Notes under the pieces: model-generated
What the model was told of the DNA's origin: nothing
The model's database searches: none
The model's input: only the letters and a program-made list of their open reading frames with translations
Position numbers and translations under genes: made by a program
NCBI GenBank assembly: GCA_013177855.1
Contig: JABLYA010000002.1
Location: 186,001-250,000 of the forward strand
DNA from: Ignavibacteria bacterium
GTDB taxonomy: Bacteria; Bacteroidota; Ignavibacteria; Ch128b
DNA length: 64,000 bases
Reading direction: 5' to 3'
Shown here: piece after piece, positions 33,375 through 39,513 of the stretch
Layout: the number at the start of each line of letters is the position of its first letter
Numbering within the stretch: the first letter of the stretch is position 1

Positions 33375-34760
33375 TTATTTCTCAAGTAATTCAATCACCA
33401 ATACTCTTCTATTCTTCCAGTATTCTTTTCTAACCTTAGTAACTGGTTGAGTCTCACCAAACCACTTGGTCATAAATCTATTCTTATCGATACCTTGGCT
33501 TACCAGATATTTGTAAACGGTATTGGCTCTTCTCTCAGATAGTTTCATATTGTAAGCAGCAGGTCCAATTGGACATGCATGACCTTCGATAGAGAACATT
33601 GCATCTGGATTATCTTTCATGAACTTAACAGCTTCATCAAGTTTTGCTTTTTCTTCTTTTCTAAGGTCATATCTATCGAAACCGAAGTAAACTGTAACTT
33701 TATATGCTTCCTCTTTAACAGGGCATCCATCTTTATCTACTTTAACACCTGCTGGAGTATCTGGACACTTATCTAAGTAATCTGGTACTCCATCTCCATC
33801 ACTATCAACTGGGCAACCGTTCTTGTCGACCTGTACACCCGCTGGTGTATCTGGACATTTATCTAAGTAATCTGGTACTCCATCCCCATCACTATCAACT
33901 GGACAACCATCTTTGTCAACTTTTGCACCAGCTGGAGTATTTGGACATTTATCTAAGTAATCTGGTACTCCATCTCCATCAGTATCAACAGGACATCCAT
34001 CTTTATCAACTTGAACACCTTTAGGTGTATTTGGGCATTTGTCTAAATAATCTGGAACACCATCTTTATCAGAATCAATTGGACAACCAAATTCATCAAC
34101 CTTCACACCTTTAGGAGTATTAGGACATTGATCATACTTATCAAGAACACCATCTCCATCTGAATCTAAATCCTTAGAGAAAGTAAAACCAAATCCAACT
34201 GATACTGTTGCATATCCATCATTAGAATTTCCACTCTTTATTCCTTCAAAGTAATCTTGCCCACCAAAGTTATATGCAGCGGCTAAATTCAAGCTAAAGT
34301 TGTCTGAGAGTAAGTATTTTAAACCGCCTTCACCATATACGGAAATTGCTTTATTATCATCAGCAATTTTTTTGGAATGATAAAATGTATAATTCAAACC
34401 TGCACTTAAATATGGCAACCATTGAGAAGTCCCATATGCATACATTAATCCTAATTTAGCATCATAGACAAAATTTCTTGCTGCTTTCCCAGTCATATCT
34501 TTGAATTTTAAGAAATTGTAACTTCCTAAAAGTCTTAGACCAAATGCATGTTCACTCTTTGTTGAGAAGAAATATTCTAAACCTCCCCTTACAGTTGGGA
34601 AATTTAATTTATTGCCTTTATCAACAACAGAAATATTTAATCCGCCATCAAGTGTGGCTCCGAAATATCCACTTAATGGGCTATAAGTTTTGTCCTGTGC
34701 CTGTGATAAACCAACAAGGACAAAAAACACTAGACTAAATGTTAGTAATTTCTTAAACAT
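33375..34760 (-). CDS. OmpA-family protein with barrel, five TSP3 repeats and OmpA domain
   Basis: A 461-aa outer-membrane/peptidoglycan link protein. It has a signal peptide (about 1-21, ending SQA), an eight-strand-like barrel (about 25-195), five nearly identical 30-residue thrombospondin type-3 repeats (about 197-348; units DSDGDGVPDYLDKCP...GCPV) that should bind calcium, and a C-terminal OmpA domain (about 355-461; FSIEGHACPIG, LSERRANTVYKYL, NRRVLVIE). The OmpA domain binds diaminopimelate of peptidoglycan. Third of three tandem paralogues, 36 bp after the second; GGAGG precedes the ATG. A strong terminator follows. Confidence 0.93.
   Translation of the reverse strand: MFKKLLTFSLVFFVLVGLSQAQDKTYSPLSGYFGATLDGGLNISVVDKGNKLNFPTVRGGLEYFFSTKSEHAFGLRLLGSYNFLKFKDMTGKAARNFVYDAKLGLMYAYGTSQWLPYLSAGLNYTFYHSKKIADDNKAISVYGEGGLKYLLSDNFSLNLAAAYNFGGQDYFEGIKSGNSNDGYATVSVGFGFTFSKDLDSDGDGVLDKYDQCPNTPKGVKVDEFGCPIDSDKDGVPDYLDKCPNTPKGVQVDKDGCPVDTDGDGVPDYLDKCPNTPAGAKVDKDGCPVDSDGDGVPDYLDKCPDTPAGVQVDKNGCPVDSDGDGVPDYLDKCPDTPAGVKVDKDGCPVKEEAYKVTVYFGFDRYDLRKEEKAKLDEAVKFMKDNPDAMFSIEGHACPIGPAAYNMKLSERRANTVYKYLVSQGIDKNRFMTKWFGETQPVTKVRKEYWKNRRVLVIELLEK
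33717..34172. repeat. Tandem 90-bp TSP3-coding repeats
   Basis: Five in-frame units of about 90 bp inside the OmpA gene. Units three to five are nearly identical at DNA level (repeated CATTTATCTAAGTAATCTGG on the plus strand), so unit number may change by recombination. Confidence 0.8.
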
Positions 34761-34796
34761 TTTATTCCTCCAATTTTTGTTTTTAATATAATAAAT

Positions 34797-36263
34797 TTAT
34801 CTAATTTTTGTAATAACTACTCTACGATTTTTCTGTCGACCTTCTTCTGTTTTGTTATCAGCTATTGGATAATTTTCACCCATCCCTTCAGCAATTAAAT
34901 TTTCAGCTTTAATTCCCAAACTAATCAAATACTTTTTTACTGCATCAGCTCTTTCCTGAGATAGTTTTTTGTTAAACTCTGATGAACCTTGACTATCAGT
35001 GTGACCTTCAATTCTCCACTTTGAATCAGGATATTTCTTCATTATTTCTGCTAACTTTTTTATCTCAGTTTTTGCTTTATCCGTCAAAGTAGATTTTCCA
35101 GCTTCAAAGGTTGTCATACCCTGAAGAATAAAAGATGTTTCCTCAATTTCTGGTTTTTGCTCTCGTGGACATCCAGACTCATTAACCTCAACATTTTCAG
35201 GTGTATCCGGACACTTATCAAGATAATCGGGAACTCCATCTCCATCTGAATCAATTGGACAACCTTTATCATTTACTCTTACATCTGCTGGTGTATCTGG
35301 ACATTCATCAAAAGGATCAAGAACACCATCTTTATCTGAATCTAATGGACAACCTTTTTCATCAACTGGAAATCCTGTTGGAGTACCTGGACATCTATCA
35401 AGATAGTCAGGAATACCATCACTATCAGAATCGATCGGACAACCGAATTTATCCACAACAACTCCGTGCGGTGTATCTGGACATTTGTCAAATTTATCTT
35501 CAACACCATCACCATCTGCATCATTTAGAGTTTTTAAGGGACAGCCAAAGTCATCGACTTTGATTCCAAATGGAGTATTTGGGCATAAGTCAAATTTGTC
35601 AATTACCCCATCTTTGTCCGAGTCTTTCACTCCACCAAAATAAATTGAAAATCCTGCTAAGCCTGTGAGATAAACATCTTTTTTCGAATTTACTTTTCCA
35701 TCAATCTCATCGGTATTGGGATAATTAAAATTACCTGCAAAATTGAGAGTAAGACCCTCAGCTAATTTTATTTTAAAACCTGTTTCACCGTAAAATCCAA
35801 TAGTTATATTTCTTTTTGTATTATAAACTTCATTCCTTCTATCATCCAAAACTTTATACCAATAATTAGAATAACCGCCAATACTTATATAAGGGCTTAG
35901 TACATCAAAAGTTAACATATAATTTAAACCAACATAGACATCGAGGAAATATGTCAAAAAGTCAACTGAATTTCTTGTTGGTGATCCAATCAAAATTGGA
36001 TTAGAACTTTTTGCATATAAAGTTCCGTATCCACCGGCTAATTTAACTCCAAAAATTCCCTTCGAATAAGATTCAAAAAAATATTCCATTTCAGCTTTAC
36101 TATAAAACCCCAATTGTGATTTGCTAAAATCACTCAGGACATATGTTACTCCTCCTCCAATTCCGAGCCAGTAAGAATTACTAAATTGATTTATATGAAA
36201 ACTATTCTGTGAGAAAATCGGGGAAGGAAAGGTTAAAAGAATTAGTAAAAAAAATTTTTTCAT
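34797..36263 (-). CDS. OmpA-family protein with barrel, TSP3 repeats and OmpA domain, paralogue
   Basis: A 488-aa paralogue of the neighbouring OmpA protein: signal peptide (about 1-18), barrel domain (about 28-215, with GGVTYVLSDF and YGETGFKIKLAEGLTLNF), five more divergent TSP3 repeats (about 216-375, such as DSDGDGVPDYLDKCPDTPEN) and an OmpA domain (about 380-488; WRIEGHTDSQGSSEFNKKLS, ERADAVKKYL, NRRVVITK). The classical GHTDSxG motif is complete here, unlike the neighbour, which has GHACPIG. It follows the barrel-only paralogue by 4 bp, so the three form one operon. Confidence 0.93.
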   Translation of the reverse strand: MKKFFLLILLTFPSPIFSQNSFHINQFSNSYWLGIGGGVTYVLSDFSKSQLGFYSKAEMEYFFESYSKGIFGVKLAGGYGTLYAKSSNPILIGSPTRNSVDFLTYFLDVYVGLNYMLTFDVLSPYISIGGYSNYWYKVLDDRRNEVYNTKRNITIGFYGETGFKIKLAEGLTLNFAGNFNYPNTDEIDGKVNSKKDVYLTGLAGFSIYFGGVKDSDKDGVIDKFDLCPNTPFGIKVDDFGCPLKTLNDADGDGVEDKFDKCPDTPHGVVVDKFGCPIDSDSDGIPDYLDRCPGTPTGFPVDEKGCPLDSDKDGVLDPFDECPDTPADVRVNDKGCPIDSDGDGVPDYLDKCPDTPENVEVNESGCPREQKPEIEETSFILQGMTTFEAGKSTLTDKAKTEIKKLAEIMKKYPDSKWRIEGHTDSQGSSEFNKKLSQERADAVKKYLISLGIKAENLIAEGMGENYPIADNKTEEGRQKNRRVVITKIR

Positions 36264-36966: not shown

Positions 36967-37155
36967 TTTTATGACCCTGACTTTTGGTTTTAATTTGGTA
37001 AAAAAAATATAAGTTGTCAAGTATACAAAACTTAATAAAACAAAATAAGTTATCAGGATTAATTAAAGCGTAATTTTAAAGCAAAGAATATAATTCATTT
37101 CTAAATGGTGAGAATAAGGGGAATAATTCATCAATGATAAATAACCGAGGAAATA

Positions 37156-37248
37156 AAAAAGACTGCCAGAGAGGAGGGGAACTCTGGCAGTAGGAGAATT
37201 ACGAATTTAAGGAGGTCTAAGGAGGAGGTATTTTCAACTCAAATTCGC
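37156..37248 (-). ncRNA. Putative small RNA with anti-Shine-Dalgarno-like CU-rich motifs
   Basis: On the minus strand a promoter-like pair (37253-37284) is followed by about 90 nt ending in a strong terminator (37162-37191). The RNA would contain ACCUCCUCCUUAGACCUCCU (plus 37210-37229), i.e. two copies of CCUCC as in the 3' end of 16S rRNA, then UUCUCCUA, and a terminator loop UUCCCCUCCU. No ATG-led frame fits. CU-rich, C-loop small RNAs that pair with ribosome sites are known in other bacteria. The element is about 190 nt upstream of the barrel operon, so an attenuated leader of that operon is the alternative. Confidence 0.45.
37162..37191 (-). terminator. Terminator hairpin with C-rich loop
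   Basis: ACTGCCAGAG (37162-37171) pairs with CTCTGGCAGT (37182-37191), a 10-bp stem; on the minus strand it is followed by CTTTTTTATTT. The loop on that strand is TTCCCCTCCT. No protein gene ends just before it. Confidence 0.8.
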
Positions 37249-37252
37249 ACTG

Positions 37253-37284
37253 CAAATTTTAAAATTTTTTCTTAATTATCCAAA
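37253..37284 (-). promoter_or_regulatory. Candidate promoter of the small RNA
   Basis: Minus strand TTTG (plus 37281-37284), 19-nt spacer, TAAAATTTG (plus 37253-37261), close to the Bacteroidota pair TTTG-N19-TAnnTTTG with one extra base in the -7 box. It faces away from the nadA promoter. Confidence 0.4.
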
Positions 37285-37343: not shown

Positions 37344-38279
37344 ATGATTACAACCGAGATTAATTTATCAAAAGAAATACTTAAGCTTAAAAAAGAGCTT
37401 AATGCGGTTATTTTGGCTCATTATTATCAAGTTCCTGAAATTCAGGATATTGCTGATTTTGTAGGCGATAGTCTCGAATTATCTAAACAAGCCTCAAAAA
37501 CTAATGCTAATGTAATTGTTTTTGCCGGCGTTCATTTTATGGCTGAAACAGCGAAAATTTTAAATCCTGCGAAAAAAGTAATTTTACCTGATCTTGAAGC
37601 AGGCTGCTCTCTTTCCGATAGTTGTCCCGCGCCTCTATTCAAAAAATTTCGGGAAGAACATCCAGAATATTTAGCTGTAACTTACATAAATAGCAGTGCG
37701 GCAGTTAAAGCTTTAAGTGATATAATCTGCACTTCGTCCAATGCTGAAAAAATAATTAGATCAATCCCGGAGAATCAAAAAATTCTCTTTTCTCCTGATC
37801 GAAATCTGGGACGATACTTAATAGAAAAAACTGGAAGAGAAATGCTTTTGTGGGATGGAACCTGTATGGTGCATGAACAATTTGTGCAAAGTAAACTCGA
37901 AAAAATTAAAGAAGAAAATCCTGATGCTTTAATTATTGCTCATCCAGAGTGCGAAGAAAAAGTCCTTGATATTTCGGATTTCATTGGTTCAACAAGCCAG
38001 CTTTTAAAATTTGTCAAAGAATTAAATCACAATAAATTTATTGTAGCCACAGAAACTGGAATAATTCATCAAATGCAAAAAGCTTGTCCTGATAAAATAT
38101 TTATTCCCGCACCGCCCGAGGATTCAACCTGTGCCTGCAATGAATGTCCGCATATGAAAAAGAATACACTTGAAAAACTTTATCAATGTATGGTAAATCT
38201 TGAACCAGAGATCGTTTTACCAGATGAGCTAATTGAGAAGGCTTACATTCCAATTAAAAGAATGTTGGATTTAAGTTAA
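37344..38279 (+). CDS. nadA: Quinolinate synthase NadA
   Basis: NadA condenses iminoaspartate with dihydroxyacetone phosphate to quinolinate in de novo NAD synthesis, using a 4Fe-4S cluster. The 311-aa protein has [24 protein letters not shown], the cluster cysteines in [24 protein letters not shown] and [12 protein letters not shown], and HPECEEKV. Length fits the family. No nadB or nadC is nearby. A candidate promoter with a palindrome lies directly upstream. It converges on the histidine kinase gene 7 bp away. Confidence 0.95.
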
Positions 38280-38286
38280 AAATCCT

Positions 38287-39513
38287 TTATTTCTTTAGAA
38301 CAATTCGCATCACACTTCCTTTGCCGGGGGAGCTGGATTTTACAAAAATTTGTCCTTTATGATATTCTTCGATTATTCTTTTAGCAAGGCTCAAACCAAG
38401 ACCCCACCCTCTTTTCTTTGTTGAAAATCCAGGCCTAAAAATTTCTTTTCTATATTTCAGGTCTATTCCTTTGCCTGTATCAATAACATCAAGGTAGATA
38501 TGCTTCTTGTCTTCAGATAGTTGATAAATTATCTTTCCTGATTTATCCTCTATTGCATCAATTGCATTTTTTGTCAGGTTTTCTAAAACCCATTCAAAGA
38601 GTTCTGGATTAATTTTTGCTGAGAAATGAGCTTTAGAATTTTTACTTTCATTTTTAATTTCAACATGAAGTTCAATGTTCTTTCCACTTTGAGGAATTCT
38701 CCGTTCAAAGTAAGAGATAACACTCTCAATCACCTTTACCAAATCTTCCTGTTTCATTTCAGGTGTTGAACCAATTTTTGAGAATCGATCAGCAACTTTT
38801 TTAAGTCGATCAAGATCATTCTCAACTTCAGAGATTAAATCGTTCATCATAACAGGATCATTCAGATTTATTTTTAGAAGTTCAATCCAACCCATTAAAC
38901 TTGAAAGCGGAGTACCAAGCTGATGAGCAGTTTCTTTTGACAGGCCAACCCAGATTTTACTATTCTCATTTTTCTTGACATAACTAAAACCAATGTATGC
39001 AAGCAATATGAAAGCAGCTGCAATTAAAAGCTGTACATACGGATAGTATTTTAATTCTTCTACTAATTTTGAATCACCAAAATGAATCTTATTTAAGATA
39101 ATAGTGTCAGCATAAGTAACTAGAATTGGTTGATGTGTCTCGTCCATTTTTTTAATTAATTCGGAAATGTATTTAATTCTTTCCTCACGAGTTAAATTTG
39201 AATCAATTTCAACATTTCGTATTTGTGATAAATCATCGGGATTAAAATTATCTTCTGCATCGGTTAAAATAAGTGGAAAGTCAATCTCTTGGATTATATT
39301 TTCAAAGATAAATGTATAATCTTTTTCTGGTTCATTTGATTGAGCAATATATTCAAGTCCCTTTGCGTAAAGAGTAGCAATTCTCTTTTCTCTTTCCTGA
39401 AGTTGCTTGACAACTTTATTGGTATATAAAAGAGTGGCAACAGCTATTATTGAAGCTACGAAAAGCAAAATGAATTTTATGTAAAGCGGAAATTCTCTTC
39501 TAAATTTTATCAT
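38287..39513 (-). CDS. Membrane sensor histidine kinase, orphan
   Basis: A 408-aa inner-membrane kinase. TM1 lies at about 12-30 and TM2 at about 155-175, with a periplasmic sensor of about 120 residues between. The H-box is KETAHQLGTPLSSLMGWIELL (phospho-His near 195), followed by the ATPase domain with N-box ENLTKNAIDAIED, DTGKGID, and RGWGLGLSLAKRIIEEYHKG. No HAMP or PAS domain is evident, and no response regulator gene adjoins. It overlaps the upstream amidase by 4 nt (ATGA), so the pair is coupled; a cell-wall stress input is an inference from that. Confidence 0.87.
   Translation of the reverse strand: MIKFRREFPLYIKFILLFVASIIAVATLLYTNKVVKQLQEREKRIATLYAKGLEYIAQSNEPEKDYTFIFENIIQEIDFPLILTDAEDNFNPDDLSQIRNVEIDSNLTREERIKYISELIKKMDETHQPILVTYADTIILNKIHFGDSKLVEELKYYPYVQLLIAAAFILLAYIGFSYVKKNENSKIWVGLSKETAHQLGTPLSSLMGWIELLKINLNDPVMMNDLISEVENDLDRLKKVADRFSKIGSTPEMKQEDLVKVIESVISYFERRIPQSGKNIELHVEIKNESKNSKAHFSAKINPELFEWVLENLTKNAIDAIEDKSGKIIYQLSEDKKHIYLDVIDTGKGIDLKYRKEIFRPGFSTKKRGWGLGLSLAKRIIEEYHKGQIFVKSSSPGKGSVMRIVLKK

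Follow-up and report, generated by a model that had tools for sequence, protein, structure and literature searches.

The intergenic DNA beside nadA in this 64,000-nucleotide window from an Ignavibacteria bacterium raises the question of whether its minus strand encodes a small RNA, and whether such an RNA could act through its repeated copies of the anti-Shine-Dalgarno (anti-SD) sequence. A first-pass annotation had proposed a small RNA of this kind, and all the minus-strand elements that it named were recovered in place by a sequence check. The proposal gained support from transcript-bounded conservation, a class-wide family of relatives, an unpaired and nearly invariant C-rich motif and a covarying terminator stem. 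Together, these comparative data confirm RNA A (copy A) as a real, conserved small RNA gene. With a probability of about 0.7, we read the locus as a stand-alone, non-coding, trans-acting small RNA (sRNA) of approximately 97 nt, a duplicated and rewired family member that would repress mRNAs bearing a Shine-Dalgarno (SD) sequence.

RNA A (37155–37251, minus strand, as are all its parts) is delimited by matches to the covariance models R1 and R3 described below, by transcript-bounded conservation and by its fold, and is predicted to be transcribed from a putative start estimated near 37250. Its folding energy is -27.7 kcal/mol compared with -12.3 ± 2.7 for shuffled sequences (z = -5.6), and two hairpins are predicted. 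In hairpin 1, seen in both the minimum free energy (MFE) and the centroid fold, the 5′ arm UGCGAAUUUGAG (37238–37249) faces the predicted 3′ arm CUUAAAUUCGUA (37200–37211), and the loop exposes anti-SD motif 1, CCUCCUCCUU (37219–37228). Anti-SD motif 2, ACCUCCUU (37209–37216), is identical to the 3′ end of the 16S rRNA of the same genome, GGAUCACCUCCUU, bearing out the earlier remark that the CCUCC copies mimic this end. A single-stranded linker motif, UUCUCCU (37192–37198), is invariant in all four A copies and precedes the 10-bp terminator hairpin (37162–37191; arms 37191–37182 and 37171–37162), whose stem is shared with the family. The terminator loop reads UUCCCCUCCU (37172–37181; usually GCCCUC in the family), and the U6 tail occupies 37155–37160. 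The motif set spread over the two predicted hairpins comprises CCUCCUCCUU, ACCUCCUU, UUCUCCU and CCCCUCCU. As the annotation had noted, no protein frame fits: among the open reading frames of the window, none of at least 60 amino acids overlaps the element.

BLASTN searches in relatives located the element beside nadA in two further species of the genus (G001 and G002) and, as a diverged copy with 71% identity, beside nadA in G004, which belongs to another genus of the same family. The transcripts of the three congeneric species are 93–98% identical, compared with 52–68% for their flanks (63–68% over the upstream 90 nt and 52–56% over the downstream 150 nt). One pair of hairpin 1 is changed from G-U to A-U in G001 and G002. 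The G004 copy retains the ACCUCCU core of motif 1, the adjacent UUAGAC, the linker motif UUCUCCU and the terminator, whose stem shows one compensatory pair; its 5′ hairpin differs, and the sequence of hairpin 1 is not conserved across the family. Matches to the loop region only, found by BLASTN in many genomes, were short and were left out of the counts.

The wider family was delineated with covariance models, of which R1 was built from the four A copies, and R2 and R3 are successive extensions. R3 contains non-A sequences only, its alignment having been gathered with R2, which includes A. Window copy A scored 54.1 bits against R3 (E = 4.5e-9 in the whole genome, a rough value as for all E-values of this iterative model search), and in its own genome copy A and a second copy, B, alone stand out. 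Copy A carries the CC(C/U)UCC linker, the 10-bp terminator stem and the C-rich loop that define the family in R3. R3 matches occur in 55 of the 245 genomes of the class, among them 6/6 genomes of family f1, 26/28 of f10, 14/14 of f22 and 1/1 of f26, with family sizes taken from the family labels in the R3 search and the class genome listing. These four Ignavibacteria families have a member in 47 of 49 genomes, whereas the other 196 class genomes yielded 8 weak matches (E 0.003–0.1) that we take as chance. Among 396 genomes of the phylum, matches outside the class were likewise weak and taken as chance. Named assemblies of Ignavibacterium and Ignavibacteriales also carry similar RNAs upstream of nadA. 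The search of Ignavibacteria genomes near nadA and elsewhere that the annotation had called for recovered the element in the genus, in G004 and in the wider family. Two weak R1 matches were dropped: L037, which is AT-rich and chance-like, and L036, which was found in a single genome just after a Spy-like gene. The latter (L036:1501-1600, minus strand; G002:C81) is a CCUCC-rich terminator hairpin with the loop UUACUCCUCCU, directly following the gene of the Spy-like periplasmic protein, and is possibly a 3′ UTR-derived anti-SD RNA of that one genome. At L201 (G129:C39:89-156 and 389-462), two members stand in tandem, both having a sigma-54 box; the terminator loop of the second differs and lacks the C-rich motif.

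The family alignment defines both the structure and the strand. In the terminator stem, 99.4% of cells are paired, 7 of the 10 pairs are changed on both sides and 35 cells are compensatory, so that the stem covaries as the annotation had proposed to examine. Although the alignment was fitted to the stem itself, the controls fall far below this value, with at most 50% of cells paired in slid alignments and 82.7% in shuffles. Eight G-U cells would be A-C mismatches on the opposite strand; they are compatible with the sRNA strand only, and the strand is therefore fixed. Almost no variation is seen in the linker CC(C/U)UC(C) or in the C-rich loop, most often GCCCUC, as asked of the CCUCC segments. 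Linker and loop have mean unpaired probabilities of 0.88 and 0.97, respectively, whereas positions that precede the terminator average 0.64; in every one of the 34 members tested, the loop motif is rich in C and free of pairing. We also considered, and rejected, a 5′ hairpin surrounding the linker in all members: it is part of the MFE fold of 15 of 36 members versus 6.3 expected from shuffles, and is hence a tendency rather than a rule.

The locus also has a recurrent gene order, in which a histidine kinase gene in the same direction is followed by nadA, often present and in the opposite direction, the sRNA and variable genes; the window matches it exactly. Its nadA (37344–38279, plus strand; Pfam PF02445) is the divergent neighbour and lies beside the sRNA in 15/36 loci, and the upstream kinase gene (38287–39513, minus strand; Pfam HATPase_c) has counterparts at 25/36, with full-length neighbour kinases 49–57% identical to that of the window. 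The latter is an orphan membrane kinase, found beside the sRNA in many genera. Neither a response regulator nor a sigma-54 activator adjoins it, and none of the genome's 11 strong sigma-54 activators lies beside the locus. A link between kinase and sRNA is putative; the window kinase may sense the signal for the sRNA. On the other side, a barrel gene follows RNA A on the same strand after approximately 190 nt in three species. In G004 something else stands in its place; in other families the next gene is a deaminase gene or, on the opposite strand, aroB or another gene. Next to the barrel protein, the window encodes two adjoining OmpA proteins with thrombospondin type 3 repeats (33375–36263, minus strand), to which the barrel protein may be related. 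Sequence comparison establishes the conserved unit, its borders, the terminator structure, the family, its sigma-54 boxes, the synteny and the anti-SD identity.

Most family members appear to be under sigma-54 control, a promoter class of the stress type. A -24/-12 box (score at least 16 of 19) lies upstream of 49 of the 55 non-A members examined; these include 17 of the 22 sites inspected at loci outside model building. The distance from the box to the first C-rich motif is mostly 29–50 nt and is larger in the B copies of f1. Because rpoN occurs in 242 of 245 class genomes, sigma-54 alone does not account for the distribution of the family. G221 (99% complete) carries two tandem copies without a box (L183, G221:C51:36610-36784), and no rpoN domain was found in this genome; TAAGTTTG stands just upstream of copy a at L183. 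The members of G240 and G244 are also without a box and instead have a perfect TTTG-N19-TAnnTTTG, which is seen in none of the 49 boxed members.

Copy A is likewise without a sigma-54 box in the genome of the window (G000), G001 and G002: TGGCAY-N5-TTG, common but not universal in the family, is absent there and present at copy B. The annotation had assigned a promoter pair, and TTTG-N19-TAAAATTTG is indeed there, with a putative -33 element of the Bacteroidota sigma-A type (TTTG, 37281–37284, minus strand; a weak element, matched by TTTG or GTTG in the corresponding position of G001 and G002) and a putative -7 element (37253–37261, minus strand; AAATTTG is kept in G001 and G002). However, the -7 box AAAATTTG deviates by one letter from TAnnTTTG and is only partly kept in relatives, and strict promoter matches occur at chance level in the window (7 versus 5.1 expected). 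The promoter is thus the weakest feature of locus A; window A would fit the promoter-replacement pattern of G240 and G244, with a poorer box. The sigma-54 family, the existence of a second genomic copy and this standing of the promoter go beyond the first-pass annotation.

The second related RNA, copy B, was found with R1 in all four genomes carrying A. In the genome of the window it lies at G000:C1:1722908-1722975 (L118, L035), between sufB and a ribose-isomerase-like gene that is followed by a sigma-factor-like gene. B is approximately 120 nt long, has the same terminator stem as A with the loop UUUGCCCUCCAC, contains further CCCUCC/CCCUU segments and is preceded by the sigma-54 box TGGCAC-N5-TTG. 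End-to-end alignment of A and B scores 81 compared with 38 ± 6 for shuffled sequences. In G004, nadA, A and B stand in tandem, and nadA and B are present in G003. In the genus of the window, B is found by sufB with the same ribose-isomerase-like gene that follows B in G004. The simplest history would be a tandem duplication, after which A lost the sigma-54 box and B was relocated; window copy A looks like a duplicate that has lost this box and acquired added CCUCC motifs. The B copies of G003 and G005 (L125, L126) have, after the sigma-54 box and ahead of the C-rich part, an additional long 5′ stem, GACGA...UCGUC, of approximately 55 nt; its structure is apparently kept and its sequence changed.

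Comparison with known RNAs places the family outside described groups. No Rfam model matched above its gathering cut-off in the window or in five relative loci; Ref84, ar14 and atoC fall far below the cut-off for copy A. Against alpha-r14 (RF02344), copy A reaches 18.5 bits with a cut-off of 58.8 (E = 0.24) and has two hairpins rather than the three, each exposing CCUCCUCCC, that characterize this alphaproteobacterial family. Its rhizobial member NfeR1 acts in trans through anti-SD repeats in unpaired parts of hairpins with variable stems; these motifs are functionally redundant, silence mRNAs at translation start, and the RNA is linked to the nitrogen regulator NtrC (PMC10746234). Copy A shares the repeated unpaired anti-SD motifs and is complementary to SD sequences, with which it would pair in the manner of NfeR1. 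In Helicobacter pylori, a C/U-rich terminator loop, a feature shared by the family described here, lets RepG pair with G-rich mRNA, although the target is a homopolymeric G-repeat in one leader and not an SD (PMC8295292). CJnc230/FlmE of Campylobacter jejuni (approximately 98 nt) is RpoN-dependent and carries a putative anti-SD motif, single-stranded between two stem-loops, but it is processed from the flgE mRNA, carries the motif CCUU, belongs to another phylum and has no C-rich terminator loop reported in that study (PMC11187230). Rfp18 of Flavobacterium, from the same phylum, affects protease mRNAs and pairs by its third stem-loop; no CUCC motif is mentioned for it, and flavobacterial mRNAs lack SD sequences (PMC9723704). 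In the open-access literature we found no described sRNA of Ignavibacteria and no paper containing both 'Ignavibacteri' and 'sRNA', and this agrees, as do the Rfam results, with the annotator's statement that no RNA of this form was described in this group. We rate the family as new and previously undescribed, related in action to anti-SD sRNAs such as alpha-r14/NfeR1 but outside it.

Repression by anti-SD pairing presupposes targets. SD counts and target predictions over 313 genes of the same genome, with an SD window from -15 to -4, gave 45 AGGAG before starts compared with 1.0 expected, and 20 GGAGG compared with 0.7. An SD 5-mer precedes 76 of the 313 genes (24%; 14 in the control window), from which it follows that SDs are used here, by a minority of genes. 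The loop of A pairs at -10 kcal/mol or better with 22.7% of start regions versus 10.2% of upstream DNA; as shuffled loops also do so fairly often (13.4%), base composition explains part of the strong pairing and the energies say little on specific targets. The best predicted pairing of the first loop, -17.8 kcal/mol, is at UAAGGAGGAGAUU. Since the 16S rRNA ends in the sequence of motif 2 and about a quarter of the sampled genes have an SD, repression of SD-bearing mRNAs by pairing is the best mechanism on offer, and RNA A may regulate many mRNAs in this way.

Several other readings have to be weighed against it. Possible, though we hold it at less than even odds, is an sRNA for one or a few mRNAs, in which CCUCC forms the core of longer pairings, for example via the conserved UUAGAC stretch of copy A, with the repeats supplying avidity or redundancy. 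The retention of UUAGAC next to ACCUCC between genera in copy A, and of GAAAUAGUUUAAGCAUAGCAUCCCUCC in Ignavibacterium-type loci, exceeds what a plain anti-SD would need; across families, however, what is common is limited to the CC(C/U)UCC motif of the linker and the C-rich loop. C-rich loops might also bind a protein or titrate G-rich RNAs with no mRNA repression. Sponges such as CsrB-type RNAs typically carry repeated short motifs in loops, as are present here, but here the motif complements the SD exactly, and CsrA-type proteins recognize GGA rather than CCU, which makes a sponge or protein-binding RNA improbable.

The genomic setting bears on the remaining possibilities. The same-strand barrel gene downstream in three species could suggest that RNA A is the terminated leader of an outer-membrane barrel operon; this is very unlikely, because the RNA in G004 has no adjoining barrel gene and most family members are followed by a different gene or by one in the opposite orientation, so that a fixed position upstream of one operon is lacking, and fold prediction revealed no alternative antiterminator fold. 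The peak of conservation in the terminator across families might be taken to mean a mere terminator or a conserved DNA element with no functional RNA. We give this hardly any credence, given the promoter boxes conserved a short way upstream in most members and a transcript that is conserved over its whole length in the genus and has no counterpart in the genome other than copy B. A plus-strand element in the nadA leader, with tandem SD-like AAGGAGG copies, would draw on TAAGGAGG and AGGAGGAGG upstream of nadA, but G-U pairs, U-tract and sigma-54 boxes alike assign the element to the other strand, and nadA is not adjacent in several families; its likelihood is close to nil.

For the preferred anti-SD repressor, we propose the following model. 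The ancestral form would have had a sigma-54 promoter beside the histidine kinase gene, a state kept in most relatives and, as to the promoter, in copy B, which itself would have moved from the kinase-side site. Family RNAs would expose one or more CC(C/U)UCC segments and a C-rich terminator loop, and these segments would pair with GGAGG-type SDs of target mRNAs and block 30S binding. As only part of the genes use an SD, repression would be selective for the SD-bearing subset, and by masking ribosome-binding sites the family probably silences a subset of genes. Copy A, with a putative housekeeping promoter and with more and longer anti-SD motifs, some matching the 3′ end of the 16S rRNA, would act more constantly. 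A bolder extension, which we regard as speculative and rather unlikely, is a lineage-wide switch in which the kinase and a sigma-54 activator induce an sRNA that silences the SD-using transcriptome as a class, with the genus-specific duplicate setting a basal level through its housekeeping-type promoter and extra anti-SD motifs. If this were true, the presence of an SD would itself be a regulatory tag in an organism for which SD use is optional.

The Ignavibacteria neighbour Bacteroidota lineages that hardly use SD signals. An RNA that copies the anti-SD where about one in four genes has an SD turns the SD as a selective-silencing switch into a testable question. Repeated loss of the sigma-54 box, in window A, G221, G240 and G244, offers natural cases of sRNA promoter rewiring, and the family, sampled across four bacterial families, comes with clear borders, a promoter class and a pairing motif that can be tested.
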